Source: Chrysomallon squamiferum (lineage: Eukaryota; Mollusca; Gastropoda; Neomphalida; Peltospiridae). From it: DNA of 64,000 bases. Location of the stretch: assembly GCA_012295275.1 (NCBI GenBank), contig CM022670.1, positions 36,135,801 through 36,199,800 of the forward strand. Reading direction: 5' to 3'. A program made the position numbers and the translations under genes. Shown piece by piece: positions 5,720 through 25,640 of this stretch. A model generated the notes under the pieces. The model did not search any database. It was given only the letters and a program-made list of their open reading frames with translations, and had not been told where the DNA came from. Positions within the stretch are counted from its first letter, which is position 1, and the number at the start of each line of letters is the position of its first letter.

Positions 5720-7879
5720 TCATACATGTTTCTCCAGCACAACACACCAGTTTCCCTGATCATAGTAACTTGTAACAACTCTGCACTGCTCTACTGACTG
5801 ACATAACTCTTCCAGTTCTCCTTCTCTGAAAACATGATAAAACCTGTGAAAGGTGGAACCTAATTTAGTGTCAGAATGATTTCCTTTCAGCTGCCATGGA
5901 ACGAGCATGTCCTGTTGCTTGAATGGTGTCCTGTTGACATGAACCGGAAGTTTACCAATACAACTTTGTACAGTCGTCTTGTTTGTTTCGGTTTTTCTGT
6001 TTTGATTATCTGTCAGTTTTACATCTACGACATCTTTTTCTGAAGATAAATTATTTGAATAAAGGTCTTCAACTGAACTATTAATGTTCTGATTTGGGCA
6101 ATTTTCTGTTGAATCGTTGTCACCGAGATTTGATGCATTCATGCCATGTGACAAACATTGTCTGTTGTTTGTTTTCTGAGCATCCTTTTGGTGTTGACTG
6201 AAACTGTTTTTATATTTATCGACTTCAGACAAGCTCTGTGACTGACATGGATTTTGCTGATGCATAGAAGAAGCACAGGCCAAATTTTCATTGTTTTCAT
6301 TTTCTGCCACTTCATGCAGATACCTGAGGTAATTAATACTGTGTTGTTTAGCAGGGTTATTTGTTTTTACCTGTTCATTTTGTGTACATAATGTACTGTT
6401 AGAAGCCAGTTCACTTGATGGCATTTTTTCTGTTTCTGTTGTCTTTTTACTGTTAAATTTTTCATCACAGACTACCGTTTCCACTATTTCTGCACTGGAT
6501 TCATTTTGATTTTCATCACGAAATTCTTTGTTTTTCTTGTCAGTTTCTATTTTGGAATCTTTGAGATATTTTGATTTGACTTTGTTAATTTTCTGTTCCA
6601 GAGCCCAGACATAGATGAGAACACGTCCACCATCACAAAGGATGCGAACTAGTTCAGAAACAGCTTTCTTTCTTCTTTCCTGAAATAAATATATTCCATC
6701 ATTTAGATCAACATCTTTTGGTCATTATCAATGCATTATTTAATATTAGTGAATATCATTATTTAATATTAGTAAAAGAATTTGAATATTTATCTGCTGC
6801 ATCAGAAACAGTTAAATAAATGCAAACCTGAGTTGACAGATGGTGAATAACCGCTATGCAGAGGCAGACATCAAATGTGTTGGATCTGAGAGGTAGAGAA
6901 AGGATGTCTGCTACAAACACCTGGTACTGACGTTCCTGACAAATTGAAGATAAACTGGAACTTCGGTCAGACCCAATCTACAATATGAAACAGCTAATAT
7001 TCATTATCTTCCTGAGAGGTTTAAAAATCATTTACTAAAAACAAGAACAACAACACATTCTTTGAGTGCTAATGATTTAAACTAGTACAATATTATAAGA
7101 AATGCTTATTATGCTTATTAGGAATGCATAGATGTTGAAGGGGAACATTTTTTTTATAAATGTAAATGACAAACAAACCTACAAACAATTTTTTTTTATT
7201 TAACCATATGTTTTATAATGATAATGATACATATCTCCCCAGATTTAAATAAAACTGACAAATTATTAAATTTCTGAACGTTTAATAAATGCATAACAAA
7301 TAAATAAACTGAAAAATCATTAAAGAAGATGGTGATTGTTTCTATTAATATCAGTAACAACTATTTTTATAATGCTAGCTATGATAATACTACTTCAACA
7401 GATATGTGCTTATTTCAGATATAGGTTTTGAAGAAAAATTTATTTTGAAAATTTGTAAAATAAAAATAAACTTACTGCAAAAATAGATTTGTTGAGTCCT
7501 AAATATTTTCCATTGCCACAGCCAATGTCTGCCATAAGAGAACCAACTGGCACTGATGTTACAAAGTCTGCAACACGAGGCCAAGCTTTGTATCGTGTTC
7601 CACTGAAGTGACCTGCTATTTCATCATACACCTAGAAGAAAAAGATTTTTACAAACAATAATAATATTAATAAACAATAGAGGCAAAATATTAACAATAA
7701 TCACAGTTACAATACTTTGTTTTCATATTTTTTTGTTCCCCGTTTTATTAGATCATGACTTAATAAATATAAAATATTTGCTATCCTCCTTTTAATTTTC
7801 ATCAAAATTTTAAAATAAAGTTATTTCCAAACAATGAATTAAATAAATAAAACAAGAGAAAACATAATACAATTACAAT

Positions 7880-7920
<41 letters not shown>

Positions 7921-10900
7921 CAGTTATATCATCTAAAATAATTAAACAAGCAAAATAATTATAATAAACAATGTAGGCAATAATATTAACAACTAATAAA
8001 TAACACAGGCAAAATAATAGTAGCAATCAGCATTGCTAATATATGAACAATTTACTGATGAAATTATTTTTGGGATCATTTCTTCTAAATGTAGCTATTT
8101 TCTATGACAGCCAGAGCCCCAAGCAATCATTTATACTCCTGGTCAGTTTCTCAAAGACTGTGTGAAAGTACATATAAAAGACCTTCCATAAAGTGATTGC
8201 AGCAGGTTTCTTTTCATCATTAAACAAAAAACATATCTTATGTGACATAATGATCTATAACATTAAAATCAATCAAAGTATGGTTAAACAATTTTTGGGG
8301 GTTTTTTGTTCTTTATTTTTTTTATTTTTTTTATTATTTTTTTTTTAAATTTAATTTATTACATTTTGTTTTTAAAATTCTGAAGAAAATTAGAATTTAA
8401 AGAAAGGATAGTAAATATGTTTTTATTTATTTATTTATTTATTTATTTTTTTTTAATTTGTTTTGTTTTGTTTTGTTTTATTTATTTAATTCATAGTTCG
8501 GAAATAATCTTATTTTAAAATTTTGTCAAAAATTAGAATTTAAAGGAGGATAGTAAATATATTGCATATTTATTAAGTCATGATCTGATTAAAATACAAC
8601 ATAAAAAAATATCAGAACAAAGCATAACAAAATGGAGACAAATTCAGAGTTTCACCCACTTTAAAAGAGATATGCACTATACAAATAACATTACAATATA
8701 TACAAAAAAACAACACAAAACAAGTATAATTCAGTTTTATTATAAATCCATTCAAGTAATGAAGATTTAAACATAAAATTTAAAATAATAAAAGTAAATT
8801 AAGTATCCTTAGAATCATAGTTTTTAAATCTACATAATATTCATTATTTTAATTTTTTTTTCAAATATATATATTTTGCAAACTGCTGTATAAATACATT
8901 TATATGAAATTCATTTTTTTTAATTTTTTTTTTTTTTATCAATATTCGATTTCAGACATTAAATTTTAAAATTATTCCTAATTTATTTTTGCTGAGAGAG
9001 AAAGAAAATGCTTAAAAGGGAATTAAAATGTCTACTGAAGAGCTAATTGTAATCTGATAGTCTTGAATCAATGTTACCAGATTAATAAGAAAAAAACTTT
9101 TAGCAGTTAAAGATAAAGTCAATTACTTAGTAGGTGTTAAAAGGTTTTAAAACATTTAAAAACAGAAAGTTAAGGTTACTTTAGTGGTGTCAGATTACAA
9201 TAATCCTTTAACTAAATGTGTGTACTATGGCTACTAACTTTCAGGTAACAATAACAAAAAACCCACAAAATCTTTGCCTTAAATGGATACTTCTGTTTTG
9301 TTCTGAGTAAGATATAAAAGCAACCTGTAAAATTAAGTGAGTGGACTAAGAAAGTTCTTTGCTCACAGCAGATGAAATGTTCTTGTAAGTAATCCTATTT
9401 CTTACTACTAACACATTATCAGAATGTTAATCAAAGTAATTTTTTTTTAGTTTAATCATGAAACTATCTATAAAATAATTCTGTAAATATCATATAGAAT
9501 ATCATTCAGTTTATTACATATAATATTAATTATTATTATTATTATTATTATTATTATTTGTTAAATAAACCTGAGAAGTATTATTTTTTGGCTTTCAATA
9601 ACAAACAAATGTTAATTTTAATTTAAGCTTTCCACAGATTATATGTTTCGATGCTTGTCAAACATTTTCTGTAATATGTCTAGAATAAATGATAATCCAG
9701 GCATTACAATGGACTGATTCTTAGAGAGTGCAGAAACAGTCAAAATCCTGATAACTAGGTCTAGCTGTCACTCAAGGTACTCAACAGTTTAAAACAAAGA
9801 AAAATAAAATATATTTGAAAACTTTTAATATATTCTTGGTATTTTCTGTGTGCTAGCTAGAATGGATTCTAGCACCAGCAAATGCTGAGAATGATAAAAG
9901 TTAAATAATCACAAATTTTTTAAACAGAAGAGAAATTAAATGGATTGCAATCTTGGTTTTACAACTACAAGTAATACAGTATGATTACTACTGTATTTAT
10001 TAATTTATTACTACTAATCTATTACTACTGCTATTACTGCAATTATAACTATTATTGTATTACTACTACTACCACTGTTATTTCTACTATTAGTACTACT
10101 ACAATATTACTACTGCTACTACAAGACAAAACAATACTGCAGACAAAAGTTTATACAAAAACATGTTTTATTCCTGTTATTTACTAAGTGCTTGCCAAAC
10201 TGAAAAGCTAGCACTAGCAAATGCAAGGCATTATCACTTGTACAAACAACAAGAACAGAGCAATCAGTATTTTATGTCTGTATAGAGGAATAAAACAAAG
10301 ACTGGAGTATACAATGTGTATGTGTGTGCATGTGCATGTGTGTGTTTGTGCACAAGTTATTTCCAAATGCATATGTATGTGTGAAATTGTGTAAATTTGC
10401 TATTCGTATGTCTTTACAGTTCTCCTGTTAATGTTAAGAGGAAGCTATTGATAAAAAATAAAAAAATAAAAAATATCTGACATTGATCAACATTTGCAAT
10501 TTTATATTTCAGTAAAGTCCATTTGTTGCCAGAGAACCATTGTAATTTGATAAATATGTTGAATATATTTGTTTCAGTTAAAATGTAATCAATAAATGAA
10601 TGTAATTATGCTTTCATTGCAGACAACAAAAAGAAAAAGGAAACAGTTTACAGACTACAAAAACATATTGTTAAAAGGAAAACCTGTTGAGATATCAGTA
10701 ATAAATTTCATGAAATAAATAAAAATCAGAATCAAATATATTTTGTTGTTATTCTTTTAAAATTCCAGTCAAAATTTCTAAATTTCCAGTCAAAGTAATA
10801 CACATCATTAAGATAAATAGGAAAAAAAAAAAAAAAAATTCAGTTATTTATTCACTCATTCTTTCATTCATTCATTCTTTTCTACTGTATTTTGTTTTAT

Positions 10901-11802
10901 TTCTATAATTTCTTTCTTTCTTTCTTTCTTTAATTTCTTTCTTTCTTTCTTTCTTTATTTGTTATCAAAATTATTAATTACTATTTCTTTTAAAATTAAA
11001 AAAACATTTTCTTTATTTTAATTTCAAAAGTTATGAGGGTTCTCCAGCAGCAGCAGCAACAACTACAACTACAACTACAACTACTACTACTACTATTTCT
11101 ATTATTATTGCTGTGCTTGCTGTTGTTGATTACCATGGTTTATCTATTTTCAAACCAGTTTTAAAAAAGAAAAAAAAATGTATAGTGGAGTATTTTATTT
11201 GATAAAAATAAACAAATAAATAATTTTATGGAGAAATCAGTTTTCCAACAATTATTCCTGCATTATATATCTTCATTACCAATTTCCTAAATGTAGTAAA
11301 TTAGTTGCAAAACATTCAGTTTTGAAATAAATATCTTTTTGGAAAATATATAAATTATGTATTTCTCTTGACTATAAAGTTGTTTTTAATGTGATATATT
11401 TAAAAAAAAAAAATAATTATTGCTTATATTAAATTTATTTTTTTATGAAATCATGCATCAATTAGAATCTGTAAGGTAATGAACAAATATATATTTTTGT
11501 TTATTTATTTTATTTTATTTTATTTTATTTTTTTTTTATTTTTTTTTTTTATTTTATTTTATTTTATTTTATTTTATTTTATTCAACTCCTGTCCAACTA
11601 TATGATCAAGAAGACAAAACACCATAAGAAGAAAAAAAAAAATATATATATCAGGTTATTATTTATAATATTTATCAAAACAAAAAGGAAAAAGAAAAAG
11701 AAAATCAAATAGTAAGAAAACACACTTGATATTTACTAATAGTAATCAGTTCATTTTGCAGACAATAATAAAAACACAAACAAAGAAGTTAACATTCCCA
11801 AC

Positions 11803-11846
<44 letters not shown>

Positions 11847-14800
11847 CTTATTTTTATTTTTTTATTTAATCAGATAAAGTATAATACATTTTTCAAATGT
11901 GAGTTTTTCTGTGAATATCAGGATCATATTCATGTACCAAAATAAATAATGTTTAGGACTGTAATAAGTATGAGTGTGTGTGTGTGTGTGTGCACAGAAA
12001 CATAATAGTAGTGAAATTCTTTTCACTTGTCTTGTTATGAACACAATAAATCCAAGGTAACAGCTTTTAAACTTTCTACAAATTTCACATTTCTTGTTCA
12101 AAATGAAAATGAAAGATTAATTAAAACCATCTTCCAAATAAAACAATGTAAAGAAAGTAAAAAAAAAATATCCAGCATTATCTGAATTCATTTTAAATTT
12201 ATAATTTTACACACACACACAAGTGCTATCCGAAAAAAAAAAAAAAAATGATTGACATACTCATAATGCAAAGTTTCATTTTCAAACATTGTTTTAACCA
12301 AATTTTATAGTTATTTATACCACCTACCTGTATAAACTAAAAAATAACAACCAAAACTGATTACACCTGAACAAATCAACATCAATTTTTAATTTTTTTA
12401 ATTTATTTAATTTAAATTTTTTTCATAGGTTTTGAAAAGGAGAATAAATAATTTCAGATGTTTAATATATTACACATGATAAAAATTAAAGAAACTATTT
12501 CAGAAAAAAAAAAAAAAAAGAACCATTCCATACTTTTCCAATTACCCCAACAGACATCAATGAAATGTTCAACAATAAAACAAGGTAAGTTTTCAGTCAA
12601 GCCTTCTTCTCCACCAAATATCATGTCAAAGCATAAAGAAAACAGACTAGAAGCTGGCTGTGCTCAATCTAAGTCACCAGCTGTCCAATTAATTGTAACA
12701 ACATTTACAATAGCACAACAAAGTAACCAATTCAGACATGGCTACCTTCATTAATTAGGTCACAAGCTTACTGTTATTGTCTAATTACAACAGCATTTAC
12801 AATGGCACAACAAGGTATGCAAATCAGACATGGCTACCTTCATTAATTAGGCCACAAACTCACTGTTACTGTCTAATTAGTTCAATGCCAGTGTCTTAAT
12901 TAGAGCTGGAAAATTAAAGGATTAGTTTCTCTATAGAAGATGATGTTTTGTATCCTTTAATTATTGTCACTTGTTGGTGTAGCCTAGGATATGCTGAAGG
13001 CTGGCATATAAGGGTGACATTCGAAACAGATTTCAGTCAACAAGCTTTTGCAGCTGGTCACAGTCAGCATATACTTATTTAGCATTATATGAATATATAC
13101 TGTTTTAAATCACTGATATACTGGTAACAGAAAAAGAAAAACTCAGAATATTCAGGTAAGTGCAACATTTTCTGTTTTTTTGTTTCTTTTATTTTTTGAA
13201 CCCTCCATTATTTTTGGAAATTTAATTTATAGGGAAGATAAATATTACAGCTTCTGAACAAGTTATTTTAAATAAATATTTAAAATATTTAACAATAACA
13301 AGCAATTAAAAAAAAAAGTTGTAAATTCCTGACACACATTAGAAGTATCTGAAACTATGCAACAACTGCTATCAATTTTAAACATTAATTTCAGATTCAG
13401 TAACATTTAAAATTAAAAAAAAAACAAAAAAAAAAAAAACATATTTTCACTTGACACAATTATTATTTAAAATAAATTAGGATTCAGAAGATATGTAAAT
13501 TTGTTACAAGTGAGAATTTAAAAAATTATCTACTTGCTTTTTACTTGTTTTGTCTATTTACTAATATTGGCCAATAGAAGATACAGAAATAATATACTAA
13601 GTGTTGAGAATAATGCAAAATTCTTATCAATAATGTTAATTTTCAAATTTCTTATTCCTGGTATTAGCTTTGTGTTAATAATTACAAAAATATCAGCACT
13701 AGCAAATGCTAGGAATAATTATAGATTACTACCAACTGTAATAATTTTAGATGCATTGTCATTATAAAGTATCTCTTGATTATAAATGACCAGATTTTCA
13801 TTGCTCCTGGTATTAGCTATGTGCTGATTGGAAAACAGTATTAGCACTAGTAAATGCTAGGAATAGTGATAGATTATCATCAACTATTAATTTTTGATGA
13901 ATTGATATATATATATTGTATATTTAGATTATACCAGTAAATGACTGGAAAATATGTTAGCACTAATTAATACTGGGAATAATGTGAGATCATTAACAAC
14001 TATTAAAAAATAAAAATGTTAACTATTACAAATTTTTTCTAGAAAATAATTATGTAATTATTCCTGGTATTAGCTGTGTGCTGACTGGAAAACAGTGTTA
14101 GCACTAGCAAATGCTGGGAATAATCTCAAATTGTTAACAACTATCAAAATATTACAGATTTTGTCTATTATAACATTTTTTTGGAATTAATTCTATTATT
14201 ATTCTTGGCATTAGCTATGTGCTGACTGGAAAATAGTGTTAGCACTAGTAAATGCTGGGAATATTGTTAGATTGTTAGCAGCTATTAAAATATTAAATGT
14301 CATAACTATTACAATATTTTTCTACAAAATAATTCTGTTATTATTCCTGGTATTAGCTATGTGCTGACTGGAAAACAGTGTTAGCACTAGCAAATGCTGG
14401 GAATAATCTCAGATTTTTAGCAACTATTAAAATAAAAAATTTTAACCATTGTGATGTATCGCTAGATAGTATTTAAAAAAATCTTTATTGTTCCTGGTAT
14501 TTGTTATGTGATGACTGGAAAACAGTGTTAGCACTAGTAAATGCTGGGAATAATGTCAGATAGTTTGCAACAATTATATCTGAAACATTTTAGCCATCCT
14601 AGAAAATACTTCATCAGATCTTTGTTATTCCTGGTATTAGCAAACAATGTTAGATTATTAGCAACTACAAAAATTTTAAATATATTAACATTAAAATGTA
14701 TCCCTAAGCAGTAAATGTCCAGATCTTTATTGTTATTTATACTGGCTAGTGCTAGTTGGAAGATGCTGGGAATTATGTCTGTTTTTTTATGTATACTTTC

Positions 14801-17800
14801 AAATTTTAAGATGAATAAATCATTCATATTCTTGGTATTAACTAAGTGCTTACAGGAAAAGAATGTTAGCACTAGCAAATGCTGGGAATAATGTTAGATT
14901 ATTAACAAAACAAAGTCAGACTACTGTCAAACTTGATAAATGTGAAAATGTACAGTGAAATTACAATGATGATTTACAAAACTAATTTTAAATCTTTCTT
15001 GTTCCTGGTATTAGCTTTGTGCTTGTAACAGTTAAAAATACTAGCACTAGCACTAGCAAATGCTGGGAATAATGATAGATTAACACAAAGTTAGACTATT
15101 GTGTCAAACTTGATAATCGTGAAAATGTACAGTGAAATTATAATGATGATTTACATAATTAATTATTCAATCTTTCTTGTTCCTGATATTAGCTTTGTGC
15201 TTGTAACAATAAAAAATACTAGCACTAGCAAATGCTGGGAATAATGTTAGATTATTAACAACACAAAATAAGACTACTGGCAAACTTGATAAATGTGATA
15301 ATGTACAGTGAAATTATAAAGATATTTACAAAATTAATTCTAATCTTTCTTGTTCCTGGTATTAGCTTTGTGCTTGTAAGTAAAAAAAAAAAATACTAGC
15401 ACTAGCAAATGCTGGGAATAATGATAGATTATTAACACAAAGTTAGACTATTGTGTCAAACTTAATAATCGTGGTGATGTACAGTGAAATTATAATGATG
15501 ATTTACATAATTAATTATTCAATCTTTCTTGTTCCTGATATTAGCTTTGTGCTTGTAACAATAAAAAATACTAGCACTAGCAAATGCTGGGAATAATGTT
15601 AGATTATTAACAACACAAAGTCAAACTATTGTCAAACTTAGTAATTGTGAAAATATATAGTGAAATAATAAAAATGATTTACATAATTAATTATTCAATC
15701 TTTCTTGTTCCTGATATTAGCTTTGTGCTTGTAACATTTAAAAATACTAGCACTAGCAAATGCTGGGAATAATGTTAGATTATTAACAACACAAAGTCAA
15801 ACTATTGTCAAACTTAGTAATTGTGAAAATGTATAGTGAAATTATAAAGATGATTTACAAAACAATTTTAGTCTTTCTTGTTCCTAGTATTAGCTCTGTG
15901 CTTGTAACAACACAAATACTAGCACTAGCAAATGCTGGGAATAAGGTTAGATTATTAACAACACAAAGTTAGACGATTGTCAAACATGGTATTTGCGAAA
16001 ATGTACAGTGAAATTATAAAGATAACATTCATAATTAATTATTCAGTCTTTCTTGTTCCTGATATTAGCTTTGTGCTTGTAACAGTACAAAATACTAGCA
16101 CTAGCAAATGCTGGGAATAATGTTAGATTGTAACAACATGATTATTGCCACACTTGATAAATGTGAAAATGTACAGTGAAATTATAAATATGATTTACAA
16201 AACTAATTTTACAGTCTTTCTTGTTCCTGGTATTAGCTCTGTGCTTGTAATAATAAAAAAATACTAGCACTAGCAAATGCTGGGAATAATGTTAGATTAT
16301 TGAAAATACAATGTCAGATCGTTATCAAGCATGATAGTTATGAAAATATACACTTATTCACATAATTATTAAATCTTTCTGGTTCATGACATTAGGGGAC
16401 AAAAATTAAGCATTATCAAATATGGGGAATAAAGTAGATTATTATAAACACTGATATCAAAGTACATCAATTAACAAAACTGTATTGTTCCTCGAATTAG
16501 CTATGTGCTAGTAAGAAAACAAAATTAGCACTAGCAAATGCTAGGAATCATTTTTGATGATTAAAAAATATAGCAGTTTTAAAAATATATTAATATATTA
16601 ATATTTATATTAGCTACGTGCTGACTAGAAACTTATTAATATTATTGGATCTGGTAATAAATGTAGCTTTTTTTTTTTCAAAACATCTTTACCAATTGTA
16701 ATATATGTATATAATTAGTTTTTTTGATAATCAGATCTTTCTTGTTACTGGTATTTCAGAGTGCTTACTGGCAAAAAAAATGTTAGCACTAACAAATGCT
16801 GGGAATAATGTTAGATTTCAACAACAGTGTTTATTCTCCTGATTTTCATTTTCATTTTCATTTTTTTATTTTAAATATCGGCCAAAATTCTTTAGATATT
16901 ATAACAAAACATAAATCTTTTTTGTTCCTAGTAATTCTGAGTGATGACTAGAAAACAATGTTAGCACTAGCAAATGCTAGGAACATTGCTAGATTATTCA
17001 ACTGAGTCAATTTTTAAAATGTTTCCTAATTCTAATTATCCATATGTAAAATATACAATCTTTCTTGTTCCTTGTATTTCAATGTGCTTGTAGGAAAACA
17101 AATGTTATAAATCAATAATCTGAATGATCAGATCTTTATTATTCCTGGTATTAGCTATGTGCTCATAGGAAAAAACAAATTAGCACTAGCAAATGCTAGG
17201 AATAATATTTGATTATAACTACATTTAACATGCACTGACAAATACTATAAATTTATATTATCAGTGATTATATATTTAGTTATTCCTGGTATTATCTTTG
17301 TGCTGACATAGATGGGAAATGTTAGCATTCATAAATGCTAGGAATAATTATTGATTATTAATCATTTTTATAATTTTAAAATATAATTACTGATCATTTT
17401 TAATGCAAAATGATTATCAAATCTGTGTTGTTCCTTGTATTAGTTATGTGCTAAAAGGAAAATAATGTTAGCACTAACAAATGCTGGGAGCAAGGCTAGA
17501 TTATTAACTAAGATAAAGGTATTGCTTGTCAGTTTCTTCATAATACCTAAATAACAGTTAATTTTCATTCCTGATATTAACTAAGTGATGGTTTACAACT
17601 GTCATCAAATCATTATTGTTCCTAATATTAGCTATGTGCTTACAAGAAAAAAATGTTAGCACTAGCAAATGCTGGGAGTAATAGTAGATTATCAACAATT
17701 GATACAAGACTGTTGTCAAGCATGTTGAGTGAAATTACAAACATGATATAAATAATTATTAAACAAATAATTCTTGTTCCTAACAGTAGCTATCTGCTTA

Positions 17801-20800
17801 CAAGAAGAAAATGTTAGCACTAACAAATGCTGGAAATAATGCTTGATTATTGACAACCATAATGTTGGATAATACCAAGAATGATAATTATAAAAATATA
17901 CACTCTGTTATTAGCACAATCATAATAATTATTAAATGGGTCTTATTCCTGATATTTCTAAGAACCATTAAAAATTAAATGCTTGGAATAATGACTTAAG
18001 AGCATAGAAACTGTATTTGAATTTACTATCAGATCTTTATTGTTCCTTGTATTAGCTTTGTACTCACAAGAAGACAATTAGCACTAACAAATGCAGGGGA
18101 ATAATACTAGATTATGAAACTACCATTATTTAAAAATTAAAATTTTACAGAAGTACAATCTTTTGATTAATAGTAATGAATCACGATTGCTTATAATGAT
18201 CATTCTTATTCCTGGTTATTAGCAATGTGCTGATAGGAAAAAACAAATTAGCACTAGCAAATGCTAGGAATAATATTAGATTATGACCACATCCTGCAAT
18301 TTAACATGCACTGACAAATACTATAAATCTTTATTATGAATGATGAGATCTATATTTATTCCTGCTACTAGCTTTGGGTGACATGGGTGGGAAATATTAG
18401 TACTCATAAATGTTGGGAATGATTATTGAATATTAATCATCTTCATAATTTTTAAATATGTGATCATTTTTGATGTAACAGAAATGTGTTGTTCCTTGTT
18501 TTAGTTATGTGCTAATGGGAAAATAATGTTAGCACTAGCAAATGCTAGGAATAATATTAGATTATTATCAAACAAGTATTTAGAGTATATCTAAATAATT
18601 TATTATGTTTTTCTGCCTAGTTCCAGAGTACTATGTTAACAACAACAACAACAAAAATATCAGTAGTAAACACAGAGAAAAAGACCTTGTTGTTATTAAA
18701 GAATTACTTGAAAGTCTTCAGCTTCTAAAAGTATGTTGTTGTACTAAAATTAACACAGTTTTATTATTATTGGGGAAAAAAGAAAGCTCACTGGTCAGTA
18801 TCAAGAAATCTTTCTTGTTCCTGGTTATAAATAATATAAGCATGAACAAGTCCCAGGAATAATGCATGATCACTATTTACAATGAGAAAATGAATTCTGG
18901 TGTATTTGTATATTAATAACTGAATTTTTAAACCATTATTTTATTCTTTGTAGTTACCAATTTAAACATCCTACCACCATTTAATTTAAAGTGCTTGTTA
19001 TCATATCTAGGCATTTCGAATATTATGATAGTAATCTATATATATATATATATTATATAATTATATAAAATAAAAAAAAAGCAACTAAATTATGTATGGT
19101 TTTGTGAAAACCTGAGTTAAAATAATTAAAGATGGAATCAGTCATGGGAGATTATCTTCATCACATACTTACTTACATTCATATATATATTTAGATCTTT
19201 CTGGCATTTGATATGTGCTTGTTTCAGAAAAATGAAAGCAACTAGCAAATACTTGCAGTAATATAAGATTCTTTATCCATTTCTGGAATTATTGTAACAA
19301 AATAAATTTTAATTAAAATAAAATTTCAATGTATAACATAAAAATATTTTTTCTATTAATATTATTGATTATATCCATGATGAAATGAAACACCATTACC
19401 AGCTAGGAACTACATTTTCTTATACAATAAAACAGAAATTAGATGGGCAAACATTATTTGTAAAAATAGTAAAATAACATTTGTTTCTTCAAATGTTCAG
19501 AATTACTCTCAGAAAAACTAATAAAATAAACTGTTTTAAAAAGATGATTTTATTAATTTTTTTTTTGTTTTATTATTTTGAAATAACAATAACAAACCAT
19601 TTTATCATTATAATATTAAGCATTACTTTCTGTTCTTGCTGATTTTTAACTCTCTATTTGTATTATATTTATGATCTTAAAGTTTATAATAAATTTAAAG
19701 ATAAAATATTCTTTTGTATTTCACAACAGTTTTATTGTTATAGGACATAACTGCTTTAACCTTTTCAATATGTTAAACAAGTGCTACAATGGTCATAATA
19801 TTGATCTAAACTGACCACTTTAGCAGTCACACTGATGCCAATGCATCAGACCTACTACCTTAAATCTAATTAACTCAGCTCCACAACGAAGACAAGACAT
19901 TAATACTATAACTATATACAAGTATGATTTATCAGATGAAATGTTAGTTTTGGGGGTTTTGTGGATGGTTTTAAATTGCAGTTAATTCAGCTCCACAATG
20001 AAGACATTAATACTATTAGTAATTTTGATTTACTCAGATGAAATGTTAGTTCTTAGATTTTCATGGCTGTTAGTTAATATAGTACATCATAAAAAATTTA
20101 ACTCCCTTTTTAGTCAGTGACACCTCAGTTTGCTTTCATTCATTTGTTTGGTTGCTGTTGTGCCATACATAAAACAGACAAGTAAATACATACACCTATA
20201 TATATATCCTACCTCATGTACATGTAACTTTTCCAATTCTATGGCTTCTTCTTCAGAATGTGGTATAGCTGAACTGAAATGAAAAATTAGATTTGATTTT
20301 TTAGCCTTTCTTGAAATATTAACAAGCAAAGAAGAAGGAAAAAGGAAAATGTATTAGATTTAATGGTATTTCTGAAAATTAAATAATTATGCTAAACTTG
20401 ATTTAAACCGTAATTTATTTGCCTAAAACAAATGCTGAGAAAGAACAGAAATTATAATTTTAAATATTAACAATTTAACAAAGGATAACAAAGGTTTAAT
20501 ATGGTTTGAACACATAGACATGTTATTATTACAGAACTAATGCATTGACTATATCTTAAACAAATCAATATGAATATATAATGCTTGATGATTATACACA
20601 GGACAAACAATAAAGACAGATTATCTTACCTTGAATGATTATGTGATTTCTCATTTGTCATTTCATCATCTGATAAAAAGGATGATAATAAATTCAAAAA
20701 TTAAACAATTGAAACAATTCATAGAAAAAAAGCTGTCAAAATTAAACAATTAAACAGCAGACTTTTTTAACATGCCTAACCAAAACTAAGATATTGTTTT

Positions 20801-23800
20801 TATTTATCTTCTCTATGAGAAATGTAGCTTTCTTTAATTAAAGCCAAATTGGACCATGATTCTTACAAAAAATTAAAACAATAGTACCTCATGAAAACTA
20901 TAAAGAAAAAAGCTTTATTTGTTATTTTCTTTTTTTTTTTTAAATATTCCCTAATATAATTCTCAACCAAAAAAAACCAACAAAAAACATCTTTCTTGGA
21001 ATTGAACATTTATTTCCCAAGTGTACAAAAATGTAGAGAAACAAAATAATTGAAAACCACTCCTGTACTCGCAAGAATGTATTTGTGAAGGAATGACAAC
21101 TGAAATAACTAGCAAGAAAAAAGAAAGAAATAATAATAATAATAATAATAACATATTTAAAAAGAAAAACCTGTTTGTATTTTTAATTTCCTGAAAGTGA
21201 AAGATGTTCTTGTTCCACGTTTGAGCAGAGTGAGATTGCCATCAGCTGTTGGAACAATGTCAGACTTTCTGGGTGTGATGCCATGTGACCAGACATATCG
21301 AGAGTCACCGGTCATGATAATTAAGCTGCGAGCTGGTAACAATACTGACAGATGTTGTCCATCGGGATGACGAAAATCCATCACAGTCTAAATAAAAAAA
21401 TGTATTGTTGTAAGAAACTCAGTGGAATGGTACAAAAATCAAGATGAAAAATTAAGTTAAATATTTGGAGGAAGAAGAGCTAAAGATTTAATACCAGATA
21501 TTATCATAACTGATTAAAAGATTCTCTTTATTTCTGCCCAGAAATATGTAAGCTTAAATACTCTGTGAAGTGACACAGCAACCAATATGAAATCTATTAA
21601 CTTAAAGAGAATGAGATATATGTTTCATGATAAAAGAAAAACAACCTGACTACAGGCTATATTAGATACATGGTGAAATAATTTTAGTAAATAATTTAAT
21701 GTATTTTAGTGTTACCAAAAAAATGTAAAGAACAAAGAATCTGATTATTTTAAAATACATTTCAGAATTGTTTTACTGCAGAAAATAAAATAAAAACAGA
21801 AAACAGGTGCTTTATCTATACATTTTTAATAATAATAATAATAATAATTTTAAAAATTAAAACCAAAACCTGAGATCCTAGGCTTAAAGACATTATCCCA
21901 TCTTCAAAAGCTGACACAGTATCAACATGAGGTGGAATTCCTTTATTTACAAAAACACAAAGAAAACTATATGTTTTCACAATAATAAATATAATATATA
22001 CTGTTTATTCTCATAGAAATGATTAAAGGAATTATCTAAAATGTTAAACTAATGTTTTTAAGCAAAATATTCATTTATTCAAATGAATGGAAACAAAATG
22101 TAGAATTTTTTATTCATAAATTGGATAAAATGGTTATATTATATATGACACCTGAAAGATAAATAAAGTACTGAAGATGATAATTAAAGCCCCCCAAAAA
22201 TAAACCCAAAATCTGAATAATTTACAATGTAAAATACTGCTATTTTTTTTTAATGACAAAATGAAATATAGATAGAAATAAAAAACTGTATCAACCTTGG
22301 CCTGGTTTATACTGATTGACAGTCAACTGATCAGGAAAATGATGCACAACTTTCATTTCCAAAGCTCGATTCAGCATTTCGTAACATTCCTTTGGAATAC
22401 CCTGAGGTAGTGGTTCATTAGGATCCACATTGTTTATTCCATACTTAAACTCAAAGCCAAAGTGTTGCACATTCCTATGTTTAAGACATTTCTGAACTGG
22501 AAATAAGTAAAAAATGTTGGTAATTTACAGGTTAATTTATAGATAAAATGGTATTTGTTACTAATATTTATCTTTTTTTGTTTTCCTTTTGCTTTTGCAA
22601 CCAAACACAATTTAAATAATATATTTGTTAATCTTACATTAAATACGTAAAACACGAAATAATTATAAAAAGTATGAAAACTAATTAAACTGGATTTGTT
22701 ATGAAACAGAAGATTATCTTAAGATTATTTTTTTAAATTCAATGGAGAAAAGTTATGTCAAGTACTGAATTAAAACCTTTTCAAAAATAAACTTAAACAA
22801 ATTTTACAGAGTATTCAGTTTGACTGTGTTTGTGGAAGCTACTTAAAGTAATAACCACATTTACTATTAATGTTCTTAATATAAAATTAATTTTATATTA
22901 CAACACATCCAAAAAAATGACCTGTATTATCATCTTCATCCTCCCATTGAAGACACTGAAGTAATTTTTCTTCATATTCTGGAGTCAAAAATTTTCCAAC
23001 AATATTAAACCAGGAGGTAATGAAGACGAGGGGCCAAGAGAAGAAGGCACTGAAAACATCAGTATACTTTTAAATTTACTTTGGCTAAAATATTTTACTA
23101 AAACTGTTTTTCAAGGGACAAAATAAGTAAATTGTGCATCTTCCTATCATATGTGGATTTACTTTAATGCAGGTATTTCTAAAATCACACACATAATAAT
23201 ACAGATTGTTCTAAAATAAGATTGCACAAGTTTTATTTGATGTTAATAAAGAGAGACAGGTGTAGGTGTGTGTGTGTGTGTGTGTGTGTTTTGTATATAC
23301 ATATATATGATGTCTTAAATTAACAATACTAAATGATCTAAAAATTATATTTTTTTTCCCAGCAATATTTATCATGGTCTGAATAGCAAATAGTTAAATT
23401 TTAACAGCTTCAATTTACAAAATTGAGATATTGGAAATGTAAAAAAACAACAACAAAGGCTCTTCTTCAATAGTCATCATTTTGTTAAGAGAGAAATTAA
23501 GAAGCTTACTGTAATGGAAAGCATTCTGAAGACAAACTTATTAATTTAATAAACCTGATAAAAAATAAAAGAAGTAAAAGAGTACTCTAAGTTTTATCAA
23601 GTTTTATACATTTAATTGTATAGACTGGTATTATACACTGAAAATATATATGATACCTTGGTTAACAAATGTAATATAAAATCGAATCTGCTGTGAATAA
23701 AGACTTCCTGTGACATTATGCCCATTCAGGGCATTGTAAGCTGCATCTGCCTCTGATACATTTTCAAAACAAACAAAGCAGTATGGTTTTTTGGACAGCA

Positions 23801-25640
23801 TAATAACATCTTCTACTGTCCCATATGGATTAAAGAGTTCCATAATTTTTTCATAAGTCATATCAGCATCCAGACCTCCATTATTAATGCACAAAATCTG
23901 GAAAAAAGTACATATAAATATCTTTAAAACTCTGTGCATAACAAAACAAAAAAAAAATGACAAAATAATGTACAAAAAATAAGAATCTAAATTAATAGAT
24001 AATTCAAAACACAATATTCAGTTTTGGTATAGATCATATTATGGTAGATTGTACCTTTTAACATTCACAATGATAAACTATCTAAGTCACTTATAAACCT
24101 TTTTGGTGCACCGATATAAAGTGCAAGGTTTTATTGCTTCTATGTGGTTAAAATAAAACTGGTGGGGTGGGTAATCTGGATGTAGGAAAAAATGGCACTG
24201 CAAAAAAGATACATGGAAAAAATGGCACCTGGAAGAAATGGCACAATGAAAATTTAAAAAAAATGGCACTTTATTTTATTTGTTTTGTATAGTTGCTTAA
24301 AAAAAAACCCACCTTAAAAGTACTTTTGAAAATACAATTTATTTGTGCAATATTGCTACATATATATATATATATTAATATATAGCATCACTCAACCACT
24401 TGGTTTTGCTCAACAAAGTACAATATTATAACTCAGTTTAATACTACAATTATCACATTATTATCACATTTAAAAATACAGTATGCATAGCATCACTCAA
24501 CACATAGCATTACTCAGCCACTTGGTTTTGGTTATCATGAGGTTTCCAGCACATGCTGTGACTAGCAATTATGAATTGTTTTTGTAAGGAGGACTTAATG
24601 GATTATATGATCATGATCAAACACTAATGGAATTATGTGTGTGTGTGTGTGTGTGTATATATAGATCCATGAGTACATTCAAACATACAGAAATGTTCAA
24701 ATATCCTCCAAAATGTAATTTCAAACATATATGTATGTATGTATGTATGTATTTATATATGTATGTATATGTATTTGGCGGATTGTTTTTGGTTTACATT
24801 TGTTTTGACTGTTTAATTATGAATGTCAACAATTGTTAAATATGACATTAGCTGCGGATTATATTATTTCTGACATTAATTCATTATCTCAAATATTATT
24901 CATGCACTGGTTTTTTATGTGCAATAATTAATTGTTTTTGTAAACAGGACTTCACCTACTACCAATAACTAAATGTCAGTAAGCAGTAAAAAAAAAAAAA
25001 ATTTCGAGTGCCCTTTTTTCCAGTGTCAATTTTTTTTCTTTTTTTTCTGAACCACGGGAAATCTGATACCATTTTCTGTGCCACTTGTAGATGTTGGTAC
25101 CAATTACTGTGACAACTGCTCAGCGTTTAGCATCAACCTTATAAGTTGTGTAATGTCTTATTATCTAACACAGTAACACTGTAACTGTTTAAGTATAACA
25201 CACTAAGTGACTAACGCTGTTACAGCATTAACCTTATTTCAAGCTGGGACAAAATGTGCACAATACTTTATGAATATACGATAAATTATTACGAATATAA
25301 TAAAATTACCACAAAATTTTGTGCTCTTCATAAACATTATACTGGTAATATTTGAGACAAAATCAAATTATCTGTATAAGTATTGTCTATTGAATATCAT
25401 CAGTATCAGTATGATAGTGGTAATGGTGATTATCATGGGGTTTTCGTGATCATTGCTCTTTAAGTGAAATTAACCATTTATATTTCCTTTATAATATTTC
25501 TTTAATTTCACCTTCGTTGGAACCTCGCATGTTCCAATACCGTCATGTTTCATCAAAATATATTTCGCCTTATTTTGTTTCTTAATCAATTTTCTTTCAC
25601 GCTTGTTTATTTTCAGATTGCCATCTGTGGAGGCTGCCAT
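5720..25640 (-). CDS. ALKBH8: ALKBH8: tRNA wobble-uridine methyltransferase/hydroxylase, 11 exons, frame broken in exon 3
   Basis: Exons in transcript order: 25640-25512, 23897-23657, 23049-22922, 22496-22296, 21940-21870, 21387-21171, 20669-20630, 20273-20213, 7631-7476, 6977-6828, 6679-5720. All have AG/GT borders. Junction phases agree except inside exon 3, where one base seems to be missing. With the frame resumed the product is about 784 aa (human ~664). Residues 44-124 are an RRM with ILCINNGG and KPYCFVCF. The AlkB domain keeps Fe ligands His238-x-Asp240 and His292 and the 2-oxoglutarate pair Arg317/Arg323 in RTSFTFR. The methyltransferase domain has the SAM motif DIGCGNG at 398-404 and the C-terminal signatures LPVHVNRT and [12 protein letters not shown]. 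The family, acting with TRMT112, methylates cm5U34 to mcm5U in tRNAs, and its AlkB domain hydroxylates mcm5U in tRNA-Gly. The extra length lies in a low-complexity Asn/Ser/Gln stretch of the last exon. Confidence 0.95.
7886..7916. repeat. (TAA)n microsatellite
   Basis: About ten uninterrupted AAT/TAA triplets in ALKBH8 intron 8. There is no sign of a role. Confidence 0.9.
9528..9558. repeat. (TTA)n microsatellite
   Basis: A run of about nine ATT triplets in ALKBH8 intron 8. Confidence 0.9.
9832..9894 (+). ncRNA. miRNA-like hairpin, upstream outlier 1
   Basis: The arms pair from ATTCTTGGTATTTTCTG plus GTGCTAG to CTAGCAC plus CAGCAAATGCTGAGAAT, across a short loop. The 3' arm matches the main-array consensus except for single changes. 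It lies ~3.2 kb upstream of the putative array promoter, so it is either transcribed separately or a relic. Confidence 0.55.
9992..10133. repeat. Imperfect ACT/TTA trinucleotide tract
   Basis: A degenerate tract of TAC/ACT/ATT triplets in ALKBH8 intron 8. The apparent reading frame over it is only repeat. Confidence 0.8.
10169..10233 (+). ncRNA. miRNA-like hairpin, upstream outlier 2 (decayed)
   Basis: GCACTAGCAAATGC on the 3' side and ATTCCTGTTATTTAC with AAGTGCT on the 5' side match the array consensus, but the base of the stem is mismatched (AAGGCATT instead of TGGGAATA). Confidence 0.4.
10911..10956. repeat. (TTTC)n microsatellite
   Basis: Two blocks of TTTC repeats separated by a short AAT interruption. 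Confidence 0.9.
11043..11108. repeat. CAG/CAA/CTA/ATT trinucleotide tract
   Basis: A compound trinucleotide tract (AGC, AAC, ACT, then ATT) in ALKBH8 intron 8. Confidence 0.85.
11501..11583. repeat. (TTTTA)n pentanucleotide tract
   Basis: A long run of TTTTA units with T-rich interruptions. It creates a spurious Phe-rich frame. Confidence 0.9.
11803..11840. repeat. (AC)n microsatellite
   Basis: About 18 AC dinucleotides. A shorter TG tract follows at 11973-11992. Confidence 0.9.
12682..12880 (+). promoter_or_regulatory. Duplicated ~95 bp block with homeodomain- and POU-like motifs
   Basis: Two direct copies (about 12682-12776 and 12777-12880) share CATTTACAAT, GCACAACAA, CAGACATGGCTACCTTCATT and ATTAATTAGG. 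TAATTA/TAATTAG cores recur at each end. The second copy contains a perfect octamer ATGCAAAT at 12817-12824. The block ends ~130 bp before a TATA box that precedes the hairpin array. A proximal enhancer is an inference from motif content and position. A simple local duplication is the alternative. Confidence 0.4.
13007..13040 (+). promoter_or_regulatory. Putative plus-strand core promoter: TATA box plus initiator
   Basis: TATAAG at 13007-13012 is followed 28 bases later by an initiator match, TTCAGTCA, with A+1 at 13035. This spacing is standard for RNA polymerase II TATA/Inr promoters. It points rightward, antisense to ALKBH8 and toward the hairpin array. A chance match is possible in AT-rich DNA, but the Inr, the spacing and the downstream splice donor together are unusual. 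Confidence 0.5.
13035..13155 (+). ncRNA. Putative first exon of a hairpin-array host RNA
   Basis: It runs from the predicted initiator to a perfect CAG/GTAAGT splice donor (GTAAGT at 13156-13161). The only ATG frame in it is about 12 codons, so a non-coding or leader exon is likely. The first hairpin of the main array begins ~500 bases downstream, inside the implied intron. This is inferred from sequence signals only. Confidence 0.4.
13652..13719 (+). ncRNA. Array hairpin 1
   Basis: TTATTCCTGGTATTAGC pairs with GCACTAGCAAATGCTAGGAA. The 3' change G to A turns a wobble pair into a T-A pair. The loop is AT-rich and longer than average. Confidence 0.6.
13801..13866 (+). ncRNA. Array hairpin 2
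   Basis: CTCCTGGTATTAGCTATG pairs with TAGCACTAGTAAATGCTAGG. The loop GATTGGAAAACAGTA resembles that of hairpins 3-6. Confidence 0.6.
14057..14124 (+). ncRNA. Array hairpin 3
   Basis: Near-consensus copy. The loop contains ACTGGAAAACAGT, whose ACTG/CAGT ends extend the stem. Confidence 0.65.
14198..14265 (+). ncRNA. Array hairpin 4
   Basis: The 5' arm TTCTTGGCATTAGCT has C to T (a G:U-compatible change) and T to C (a wobble to C-G change). Both preserve plus-strand pairing. Confidence 0.65.
14340..14407 (+). ncRNA. Array hairpin 5 (consensus copy)
   Basis: Essentially identical in both arms and loop to hairpin 3. The base extends through ATTATTCC/GGAATAAT. Confidence 0.7.
14486..14554 (+). 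ncRNA. Array hairpin 6
   Basis: The 5' arm is TTGTTCCTGGTATTTGTTAT and the 3' arm TAGCACTAGTAAATGCTGGG. The loop is the same as in hairpins 3-5. Confidence 0.6.
14828..14892 (+). ncRNA. Array hairpin 7
   Basis: TATTCTTGGTATTAACTAAG pairs with the intact consensus 3' arm. The loop differs from hairpins 3-6. Confidence 0.6.
14999..15073 (+). ncRNA. Array hairpin 8
   Basis: First of eight copies in the ~175 bp homogeneous subarray. The 3' arm carries an internal duplication, ACTAGCACTAGC. Confidence 0.6.
15177..15245 (+). ncRNA. Array hairpin 9
   Basis: The 5' arm is TTGTTCCTGATATTAGCTTT. The 3' arm is consensus. Confidence 0.6.
15349..15422 (+). ncRNA. Array hairpin 10
   Basis: Consensus arms. 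The loop is expanded by a run of A residues. Confidence 0.6.
15528..15597 (+). ncRNA. Array hairpin 11
   Basis: Matches hairpin 9 closely across arms, loop and flanks. Confidence 0.6.
15704..15773 (+). ncRNA. Array hairpin 12
   Basis: The 5' arm has the GATATT variant. The 3' arm is consensus and the loop differs by a few bases. Confidence 0.6.
15878..15945 (+). ncRNA. Array hairpin 13
   Basis: The 5' arm TTCCTAGTATTAGCTCTG has G to A at a wobble position, giving an A-T pair. The 3' arm is consensus. Confidence 0.6.
16052..16121 (+). ncRNA. Array hairpin 14
   Basis: Consensus 3' arm with the GATATT variant 5' arm. Same subarray. Confidence 0.6.
16220..16290 (+). ncRNA. Array hairpin 15
   Basis: Last copy of the ~175 bp subarray. 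The 5' arm is TTCCTGGTATTAGCTCTG and the 3' arm is consensus. Confidence 0.6.
16484..16551 (+). ncRNA. Array hairpin 16
   Basis: 5' arm TTCCTCGAATTAGCTATG. 3' arm TAGCACTAGCAAATGCTAGG. Confidence 0.55.
16742..16809 (+). ncRNA. Array hairpin 17
   Basis: 5' arm TTACTGGTATTTCAGAGTGC. 3' arm TAGCACTAACAAATGCTGGG. Confidence 0.5.
16920..16987 (+). ncRNA. Array hairpin 18
   Basis: 5' arm TTCCTAGTAATTCTGAGTG. 3' arm TAGCACTAGCAAATGCTAGG. Upper-stem pairing is weaker. Confidence 0.5.
17138..17206 (+). ncRNA. Array hairpin 19
   Basis: Consensus 5' arm. The 3' arm has CTAGGAATAAT, which adds a Watson-Crick pair. Confidence 0.6.
17280..17348 (+). ncRNA. Array hairpin 20
   Basis: 5' arm ATTCCTGGTATTATCTTTG. 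The 3' arm is partly changed to TTAGCATTCATAAATGCTAG. Confidence 0.5.
17428..17494 (+). ncRNA. Array hairpin 21
   Basis: 5' arm TTCCTTGTATTAGTTATG. 3' arm TAGCACTAACAAATGCTGGG with a changed base of the stem. Confidence 0.5.
17614..17682 (+). ncRNA. Array hairpin 22
   Basis: 5' arm TTCCTAATATTAGCTATG. The 3' arm is consensus up to GGGAG. Confidence 0.55.
17772..17840 (+). ncRNA. Array hairpin 23
   Basis: 5' arm TTCCTAACAGTAGCTATC. 3' arm TAGCACTAACAAATGCTGGA. This is the most diverged of the fully formed copies. Confidence 0.45.
18037..18105 (+). ncRNA. Array hairpin 24
   Basis: 5' arm TTCCTTGTATTAGCTTTG. 3' arm TAGCACTAACAAATGCAGGG. Confidence 0.5.
18205..18274 (+). ncRNA. Array hairpin 25
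   Basis: 5' arm ATTCCTGGTTATTAGCAATG with one inserted T. The 3' arm is consensus with CTAGGAATAAT. Confidence 0.55.
18355..18423 (+). ncRNA. Array hairpin 26 (diverged)
   Basis: 5' arm TTATTCCTGCTACTAGCTTT. 3' arm TTAGTACTCATAAATGTTGG. It is co-diverged with hairpin 20. Confidence 0.4.
18488..18555 (+). ncRNA. Array hairpin 27
   Basis: 5' arm TTCCTTGTTTTAGTTATG. 3' arm TAGCACTAGCAAATGCTAGG. Last well-preserved copy. Confidence 0.55.
18621..18730 (+). ncRNA. Putative second exon of the array host RNA
   Basis: A strong acceptor, TTTTTCTGCCTAG (ending at 18620), with a branch-like TCTAAAT upstream, precedes 110 bases ended by AAAA/GTATGT (18731-18736). It sits directly after the last good hairpin, so the array would fall inside one intron. 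The segment is open in one frame, with an Asn run and a Lys/Glu/Leu-rich tail. I do not recognise it, and a coding role is unproven. Confidence 0.3.
18813..18863 (+). ncRNA. Shortened hairpin at array edge
   Basis: TTGTTCCTGG pairs with CCCAGGAATAAT around a loop with no trace of the upper-stem consensus. A truncated derivative. Confidence 0.35.
19199..19262 (+). ncRNA. Decayed hairpin copy
   Basis: TCTGGCATTTGATATGTGCT and CAACTAGCAAATACTTGCAG retain the family signature with several mismatches. Confidence 0.3.
19868..20085. repeat. Direct duplication, ~110 bp period
   Basis: Two copies share CAGCTCCACAA, GAAGACA, ATTAATACTAT and CAGATGAAATGTTAGTT. It lies in ALKBH8 intron 8 just before exon 8. 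No function is visible. Confidence 0.8.
22922..23049 (-). other. ALKBH8: ALKBH8 exon 3 with apparent one-base frameshift
   Basis: Read from the exon 2 junction, the exon gives a conserved-looking segment with [12 protein letters not shown] (human has ALPPGLMVVEE) and then hits TGA. The downstream part continues the family sequence ([15 protein letters not shown]) only in the next frame. The switch falls at the minus-strand A4T5 tract, plus-strand A-run 22987-22991. One more base there restores both halves and matches the downstream phases. Exon borders are a CAG acceptor and a CAG/GT donor. Confidence 0.85.
24187..24270. repeat. Clustered AAAATGGCAC motif
   Basis: AATGGCAC recurs four times, spaced by ~20-35 bases, each after a run of A residues. 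A related sequence in the opposite sense (GTGCC near 25079 and TGCCCTTTTTTCC near 25010) lies ~800 bp away. This could be the remains of a DNA transposon with inverted ends, but I cannot define termini. Confidence 0.35.

Follow-up and report, generated by a model that had tools for sequence, protein, structure and literature searches.

The question raised by this locus is whether a tandem array of short hairpins in the genome of the gastropod Chrysomallon squamiferum is a cluster of microRNA genes or a repeat of another kind. The array lies in a 64,000-nucleotide stretch of contig CM022670.1 (assembly GCA_012295275.1, positions 36,135,801 to 36,199,800 of the forward strand), which is referred to here as the window and in which positions are counted from the first letter, and it stands between exon open reading frames (ORFs) of ALKBH8. 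In an earlier note on this DNA, the array was described as a giant microRNA-like cluster. Our results support a microRNA-like reading by the long stems, by arms that change more slowly than spacers, by folding specific to the + strand and by paralogues that keep the 3' arm, all in the sequence of one genome. The array is very probably a cluster of canonical microRNA genes of a single family, with a predicted product on the 3' arm (3p) and an extreme tandem copy number, and it appears unusual in scale.

The hairpin array of the window

A covariance model, R1, was built on an alignment, A1, of 26 window units and six unit types from another contig (C1, below), with the stem taken from one unit. 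At E ≤ 1, R1 had 64 matches in the window, 35 on the + strand and 29 on the - strand. Thirty of the + strand matches had E ≤ 5.2e-8, of which 27 were within 13642-18564 and three outside (9820-9904, 10159-10243 and 19185-19271); 26 of these 30 were in the training alignment and four were not (15519 and the three outlying ones). The remaining five + strand matches, at 13535, 14615, 16370, 17933 and 18805, were weak (E 0.002-0.46) and are probably decayed copies, or chance. Because the unit is a hairpin, and thus self-complementary, matches on the - strand are expected at the same places, and 28 of the 29 coincided with + strand places at much lower score (best 39.3 vs. 96.6 bits). In addition, a fixed-length search with the 3' arm (≤ 10 mismatches of 26) identified 34 places in 13400-19300, while each of 20 base shuffles of 13000-19300 gave 0-3 matches. 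The tandem hairpin array in the window is real. The count of about 26 hairpins plus decayed copies given previously agrees with the 27 clear hairpins found in the main span (30 in all) and up to five decayed ones, but the bounds given with it, 13652..18555, were too narrow, as the array spans about 9.8 to 19.3 kb with the outlying matches. The R1 matches are as follows.

9820..9904, + strand, outlying hairpin upstream of the previously given bounds, 61.6 bits, E 6.2e-13, not in training
10159..10243, + strand, outlying hairpin, 42.9 bits, E 3.9e-8, not in training
13642..13728, + strand, hairpin 1 of the main array, 78.3 bits, also by fold
13791..13876, + strand, hairpin 2, 85.2 bits
14048..14133, + strand, hairpin 3, 91.3 bits
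14189..14274, + strand, hairpin 4, 87.8 bits
14331..14416, + strand, hairpin 5, top score, 96.6 bits, minimum free energy (MFE) -40.6 (+) vs. -28.1 (-)
14478..14563, + strand, hairpin 6, 80.1 bits
14816..14901, + strand, hairpin 7, 83.6 bits
14989..15082, + strand, hairpin 8, longest loop, 80.9 bits
15167..15254, + strand, hairpin 9, 87 bits
15340..15431, + strand, hairpin 10, 88.7 bits
15519..15606, + strand, hairpin 11, not in training, 87 bits
15695..15782, + strand, hairpin 12, 84.7 bits
15868..15954, + strand, hairpin 13, 84.3 bits
16043..16130, + strand, hairpin 14, 81.5 bits
16211..16299, + strand, hairpin 15, 85.4 bits
16475..16560, + strand, hairpin 16, 78.5 bits
16732..16818, + strand, hairpin 17, indel in the 5' arm (alignment), 69.2 bits
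16912..16996, + strand, hairpin 18, indel in the 5' arm (alignment), 70.5 bits
17129..17215, + strand, hairpin 19, 89.1 bits
17270..17357, + strand, hairpin 20, 3' core changed, 67.4 bits
17418..17503, + strand, hairpin 21, 86.9 bits
17606..17691, + strand, hairpin 22, 92.7 bits
17764..17849, + strand, hairpin 23, stem missed by single-sequence fold, 74 bits, MFE -10.8 (+) vs. -14.8 (-)
18030..18114, + strand, hairpin 24, upper stem folds otherwise, 70.7 bits
18196..18283, + strand, hairpin 25, 79.7 bits
18346..18432, + strand, hairpin 26, diverged, stem missed by fold, 45.1 bits, E 1.1e-8
18479..18564, + strand, hairpin 27, 78.8 bits
19185..19271, + strand, outlying diverged hairpin-like copy downstream, weak fold, 42.4 bits, E 5.2e-8, not in training
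17933..18001, + strand, probable decayed copy, one of the five weak matches
13535-13623, 14615-14677, 16370-16442 and 18805-18872, + strand, weaker probable decayed copies, the other four weak matches

The 34 candidate units were curated to 27 by exclusion of those with weak arms (13891, 14723, 16373, 17899, 18608, 18809 and 19195). The 27-unit set was used for the identity profile and for the counts of CNNC, UGUG and UG motifs; from the profile anchored on the 5' arm (5p) only, units 16742, 16919 and 18207 were also left out. A lone core-like match to the right of the window, at C6:36206086 on the same contig, was rejected, as it does not fold.

All 34 candidate units were folded with 10-nt flanks on both strands. 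The mean MFE was -25.1 kcal/mol on the + strand vs. -15.3 on the - strand, with the + strand lower in 31 of the 34 units (Wilcoxon p 1.3e-6). G-U pairs are numerous in the stem and have no counterpart on the other strand, which is likely why the + strand folds better. Folding of every unit had been proposed as a check, and nearly all of the 27 curated units gave a long stem of the pri-microRNA type, of roughly three helical turns with a short terminal loop; units 17774 and 18356 failed and 18040 succeeded in part. Similar stems were found in 10 of 11 representatives from C1, the one at 694748 being that in which no stem was seen in the fold, and most C1 types had the same kind of stem with a basal helix of their own. 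In the window as well as in C1, the hairpins consist of one stem, ~35 bp in length and closed by a short loop, and not of a long duplex. Nine of the 11 C1 representatives were also more stable on the + strand.

Pairing was kept across the units. In A1, 80.4% of cells were paired and 12 of the 29 pairs showed two-sided change (12 pairs, 32 cells), and pair covariation exceeded all 500 shuffles on five of five measures. Moreover, the basal halves of six types and three window units paired better with their own partners than with swapped ones (mean -6.2 vs. -4.1, permutation p 0.0015).

Among the 27 units, pairwise identity was 0.76-1.0 at most arm positions and mostly 0.55-0.93 in the downstream basal part; at a few variable arm positions it was as low as 0.37 (5' arm) or 0.57 (3' arm). 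The conserved block ends ~42 nt past the 3p start, where identity drops to ~0.35 against a background of 0.30; a few nucleotides upstream of the 5' arm, identity is likewise only ~0.3-0.5. Near-invariance had been claimed for both arms, which holds for the 3' arm, with a mean pairwise identity of 0.91, but less so for the 5' arm (0.82; 26 window units). Nor had loops and most spacers all diverged beyond alignment: two local subfamilies, with periods of ~141 and ~176 bp, align end to end. For the nine copies of the 176-bp subfamily, diversity (pi) was 0.000 in 3p, 0.091 in 5p, 0.246 in the loop and 0.229 in the spacer. For the five copies of the 141-bp subfamily, one of which is enlarged by a degenerate unit, the values were 0.045, 0.127, 0.075 and 0.451, respectively. 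Within the window array, the arms evolve slower than the spacers. Conservation is thus concentrated as claimed in the paired arms and basal stem, but it is not confined to them, as the loop of the 141-bp subfamily is conserved too. A pi of 0.00-0.05 in the 3' arm while spacers reach 0.23-0.45 suggests selection over the same period.

Candidate sequence signals of microRNA processing gave a mixed picture. Counted from the 3p end (after GGGAAU), a CNNC motif starts 16-18 nt downstream in 16 of the 27 window units, while 3% of start positions in 13600-18600 qualify. The same spacing was found in 6 of 6 C1 types (five of the repeat described below plus a sixth at the left edge of array A), which amount to about four independent cases because t1 and t6, and likewise t3 and t5, are close relatives. 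An apical UGUG was present in 21 of the 27 window units, and in the fold of 15177-15244 the basal helix, by our reading, begins 11 nt below the 5p start. A review names, as identifiers of pri-microRNAs, a stem of ~35 bp together with CNNC, apical UGUG and basal UG, and states that CNNC lies downstream of about 60% of hairpins and that Drosha measures 11 bp from the basal junction (PMC6298569).

The mature product would be the 3' arm, about UAGCACUAGCAAAUGCUGGGAA, with AGCACUA or, one base on, GCACUAG as the predicted seed. That the 3' arm is the most conserved element and the likely product, as was suggested before, fits with the paralogous arrays, which keep the 3' arm while their 5' arms are remodelled. 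A fixed 3' strand together with a drifting yet complementary 5' strand is the pattern of a 3p microRNA and its star. No named family had been recognized for this seed and, similarly, the covariance models of Rfam 15 had no match, either at gathering score over the whole window or up to E = 1 over 13000-19200.

Paralogous arrays on two other contigs

The genome searched comprises 404.6 Mb in 22 contigs, among which C6 is the contig of the window, and C1 and C13 carry the other arrays. A 3p pattern of 23 places (≤ 3 mismatches) matched 256 forward and 20 reverse places, while the reversed pattern, used as control, matched 0 and 0. With a 17-place core (≤ 2 mismatches), 289 forward and 58 reverse places were found, against 15 and 10 for the control. 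Besides the window, the cores form four array stretches.

C1:694748-717812, array A, 98 cores
C1:717864-718063, 200-base run of N ending array A
C1:1568337-1588179, second C1 array, 89 cores plus 2 inverted
C13, ~11.22 Mb, array with 5 forward and 16 reverse cores, 5.3 kb examined
C13, ~14.27 Mb, array with 41 forward and 2 reverse cores, 10 kb examined

Together with the window (27 cores, which are a different set from the 27 hairpins), these stretches hold 280 cores at ≤ 2 substitutions, in five arrays over three contigs. The total is a lower bound because array A stops at a gap and the C13 arrays were covered in part. The window cluster is not the largest in this genome: the C1 arrays hold 98 and 89 cores.

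The four arrays on C1 and C13 consist of one ~1.14-kb repeat with five different hairpins, as shown by comparison of 35 C1 repeats. In each of these four arrays, matches over 800 bp were on average 98.6-99.0% identical to one C1 repeat. Comparison between the window units and six C1 types showed that 3p identity was 0.91 within the window, 0.92 within C1 and 0.89 between them. The corresponding identities were 0.82, 0.65 and 0.67 for 5p and 0.57, 0.49 and 0.37 for the loop, and those of the basal flanks between window and C1 were 0.26 and 0.15, i.e., unrelated. With one 86-base window unit as query, at least 23 places were found among the best candidates scored, all in the window array. Moreover, the exact core followed five bases on by A, C or T occurred 17 times, all in the window. 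As these matches are all local, the window type appears to be confined to the window locus.

Inverted copies of the five-hairpin repeat were observed at array edges (C1:1567946-1568530 and C13:11223024-11223317). Such inverted edges, together with ~99% identical repeats at four places, suggest recent movement, gene conversion or misplaced pieces of one array. In the consensus of the C1 repeat, the longest spacer, between the fourth and fifth cores, contains TATA-like and splice-donor-like strings, recognized by eye; each ~1.14-kb repeat might carry a promoter of its own. Outside the arrays, a lone match with two mismatches to the 5' arm of one C1 type was found at C7:34891912-34891931 (- strand) and is probably due to chance.

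The host locus

The features surrounding the window array are listed below.

7440..21387, - strand, host interval between ALKBH8 exon ORFs, with the hairpin array antisense inside, bounded by the flanking exon ORFs only
5720-6721, - strand, ALKBH8 exon ORF, matching proteins named alkB homolog 8
6759-6977, - strand, ALKBH8 methyltransferase exon ORF, Pfam Methyltransf_11
7440-7631, - strand, left-flank ALKBH8 exon ORF, assigned by reading of the ORF and without a Pfam match
21157-21387, - strand, ALKBH8 2OG-Fe(II) oxygenase exon ORF, Pfam 2OG-FeII_Oxy_2 at 30.4 bits, slightly under the cut-off of 31.2
23631-24014, - strand, ALKBH8 exon ORF with RRM, Pfam RRM_1

The placement of the array inside the largest ALKBH8 intron thus stands insofar as the array lies between ALKBH8 exon ORFs (at ~7.6 and ~21.2 kb), but it is on the opposite strand to the host exons: the hairpins are on the + strand by covariance search, and the ALKBH8 exons are on the - strand by their ORFs and Pfam matches. 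As the array is antisense to ALKBH8, it cannot simply ride on the ALKBH8 transcript, and a promoter of its own is therefore probable. Just upstream of the hairpins, at 12690-12879, a 92-bp direct repeat was observed (2.1 copies, 87% matches), which may be a remnant of the duplications that built the array or belong to a regulatory region.

The named best matches of one ALKBH8 exon ORF include those of the mussel Dreissena and the snails Bulinus, Physella and Biomphalaria. At 170-2878, a zinc-finger ORF of 903 amino acids has named best matches in Gigantopelta (61% over 86%), Haliotis rufescens (59% over 44%) and Patella (55% over 43%). The best zinc-finger match and the best ALKBH8-exon match seemingly come from the same source, so that the neighbourhood may be conserved in a related animal. 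Towards the right of the window, a 74-bp tandem repeat (51704-52050, 4.7 copies, 77% matches) lies among + strand ORFs that may be those of THOC2.

Alternative readings and known systems

If the array is a microRNA cluster, its hairpins would be carried by a primary + strand transcript that runs antisense to ALKBH8 and probably has its own promoter. Drosha/Microprocessor would free each pre-microRNA, with the long stem, CNNC and the basal junction (~11 nt below the 5p start) as guides. Dicer would then act and Argonaute would load the 3p strand, and the loaded strand would repress mRNAs with a matching seed site. The copy number in the window probably grew by repeated local tandem duplication, including the 141-bp and 176-bp bursts, and the ~1.14-kb five-hairpin repeat was probably amplified separately into the arrays of C1 and C13.

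Several observations weigh against this reading. Three of the 34 window units and two of the 11 C1 representatives fold better on the - strand. The structure used for the covariation count came from one of the aligned sequences, and a control in which it was slid by +3 exceeds the true structure in two-sided changes (13 vs. 12 pairs, 36 vs. 32 cells), although the slid structure is far lower in paired cells (45.0 vs. 80.4%) and covariation score (0.080 vs. 0.181). RNAalifold on A1, the 32-sequence MAFFT alignment, missed the long stem and gave only a 6-pair hairpin in the 3' arm, with no two-sided changes. Among the basal halves, only 2 of 9 rows had the own partner as the single best one, and the p values overstate independence because the units share ancestry. 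In the homogenised repeat (35 C1 copies), pi in 3p (0.012) is only slightly under that in loop (0.014), 5p (0.017) and spacer (0.018). Within the 141-bp subfamily, variation is lower in the loop (0.075) than in the 5' arm (0.127). Finally, a basal UG at -14 was present in 0 of 27 window units, and the background rate of CNNC covers window positions 13600-18600, while C1 is richer in G+C than the window array.

The alternative that survives best is a sub-case of the microRNA reading, so that our degrees of confidence in the readings do not sum to one. It holds that the C1 and C13 arrays are the expressed members and that the array in the ALKBH8 intron is old, decaying and kept mainly by drift. 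The up to five decayed and several diverged window copies, the two curated units that fail the single-sequence fold (17774 and 18356) and the antisense position inside a gene all agree with it. We regard it as improbable, given that the 3' arm in the window has changed so little beside its spacers and that CNNC is retained in 16 of the 27 units.

A neutral or selfish satellite, whose unit is by chance an imperfect palindrome (e.g., a tandemly amplified element like a miniature inverted-repeat transposable element) and whose hairpin is a by-product of DNA palindromy, is very improbable. Such a satellite would account for the tandem layout with local bursts, for the homogenised higher-order repeat of ~1.14 kb that recurs at four places on two contigs, for the inverted copies at array edges and for the weak contrast in constraint within the homogenised repeats. 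Palindromy of the DNA would favour neither strand, yet folding is far better on the + strand; in addition, constraint is concentrated in the arms and basal stem, the window and C1 types have the 3' arm and little else in common, and CNNC stands at a fixed spacing. We give as little credence to another kind of hairpin RNA, be it a precursor of hairpin RNA (hpRNA) or endogenous small interfering RNA (endo-siRNA), or a structural RNA with a protein-binding hairpin. Hundreds of hairpins from a repeated locus could supply siRNA production, but the single ~35-bp stems with a short loop are not a long duplex, one arm is more conserved than the other, and no structural RNA in Rfam matched. The least credible explanation is that the conserved 3' element is a DNA-binding box in a satellite, like the CENP-B box within alpha satellite, with the hairpin incidental: a ~17-bp element is indeed kept in arrays otherwise different in sequence, but the complementarity of the 5' arm amid sequence change, the basal stem and the CNNC spacing would be left unexplained.

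Long strings of the 3p sequence were not found in the text of papers, a search that covered main texts and not the supplements where many microRNA lists stand. Shorter strings matched one plant paper (PMC5811567), and strings of 9-10 letters gave no mollusc microRNA title among the matches listed. Topic searches of the literature, whose scope was likewise paper text rather than supplements, miRBase or MirGeneDB, returned no title recognizable as such an array among the matches listed. To our knowledge, the largest tandem microRNA arrays are those of vertebrates. Annotation pipelines could easily mistake arrays like those described here for satellites and mask them. The occurrence of diverged and homogenised arrays in one genome would provide a natural series for the birth, homogenisation, movement and decay of microRNA clusters.

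Among known families, mature miR-96 of the mir-96/mir-183 family has one stretch similar to the first half of the 3p of the array. Different from the array, however, the product there is on the 5' arm and has another seed, and the array has no Rfam match. The primate C19MC and rodent Sfmbt2 clusters are also large, lineage-specific, tandem and grown by local duplication, and the Sfmbt2 cluster is intronic. The mature sequences of those clusters diversify, whereas here one 3p is near-fixed over about 280 copies.

The best understood giant clusters are those of miR-430 and miR-427, which drive clearance of maternal messages in fish and frog embryos. By analogy, the copy number in C. squamiferum may serve to supply a single microRNA rapidly and in very large amounts, as miR-430/miR-427 do at genome activation, a suggestion that we hold weakly. 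The fuller proposal, that an invertebrate independently evolved a mega-dose system of the miR-430/miR-427 type with about 280 or more copies of one 3p microRNA, in which the old, diverging ALKBH8 cluster and the young, homogenised C1 and C13 arrays would flood the early embryo or germline and clear maternal messages, is held about as weakly; the early embryo or germline as likely site of activity would be a guess. If true, it would open a direct way to ask whether animals in general can solve the maternal-to-zygotic transition by extreme tandem dosage.

The mature sequence and seed of miR-430 are other than those of the array, and the sequence of miR-427 is not known to be related. Here, five hairpins make up each ~1.14-kb repeat of an invertebrate genome, and the arrays are spread over the three contigs C1, C6 and C13. 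In the layout of the loci there is likeness. Zebrafish miR-430 is described as repeating multi-hairpin units in very high tandem copy number (PMC10417697), with more than 2000 precursors (PMC10569791); the arrays of C. squamiferum similarly combine one family, high tandem copy number and multi-hairpin units. For X. laevis, 33 copies of miR-427 are given over 55 kb, in a tandem locus with precursors on both of its strands (PMC10569791), and the C1 and C13 arrays likewise have many precursor copies and inverted pieces. If expressed, this molluscan family, with nearly identical mature sequences in about 280 copies, would stand beside miR-430/miR-427 as an independent case.

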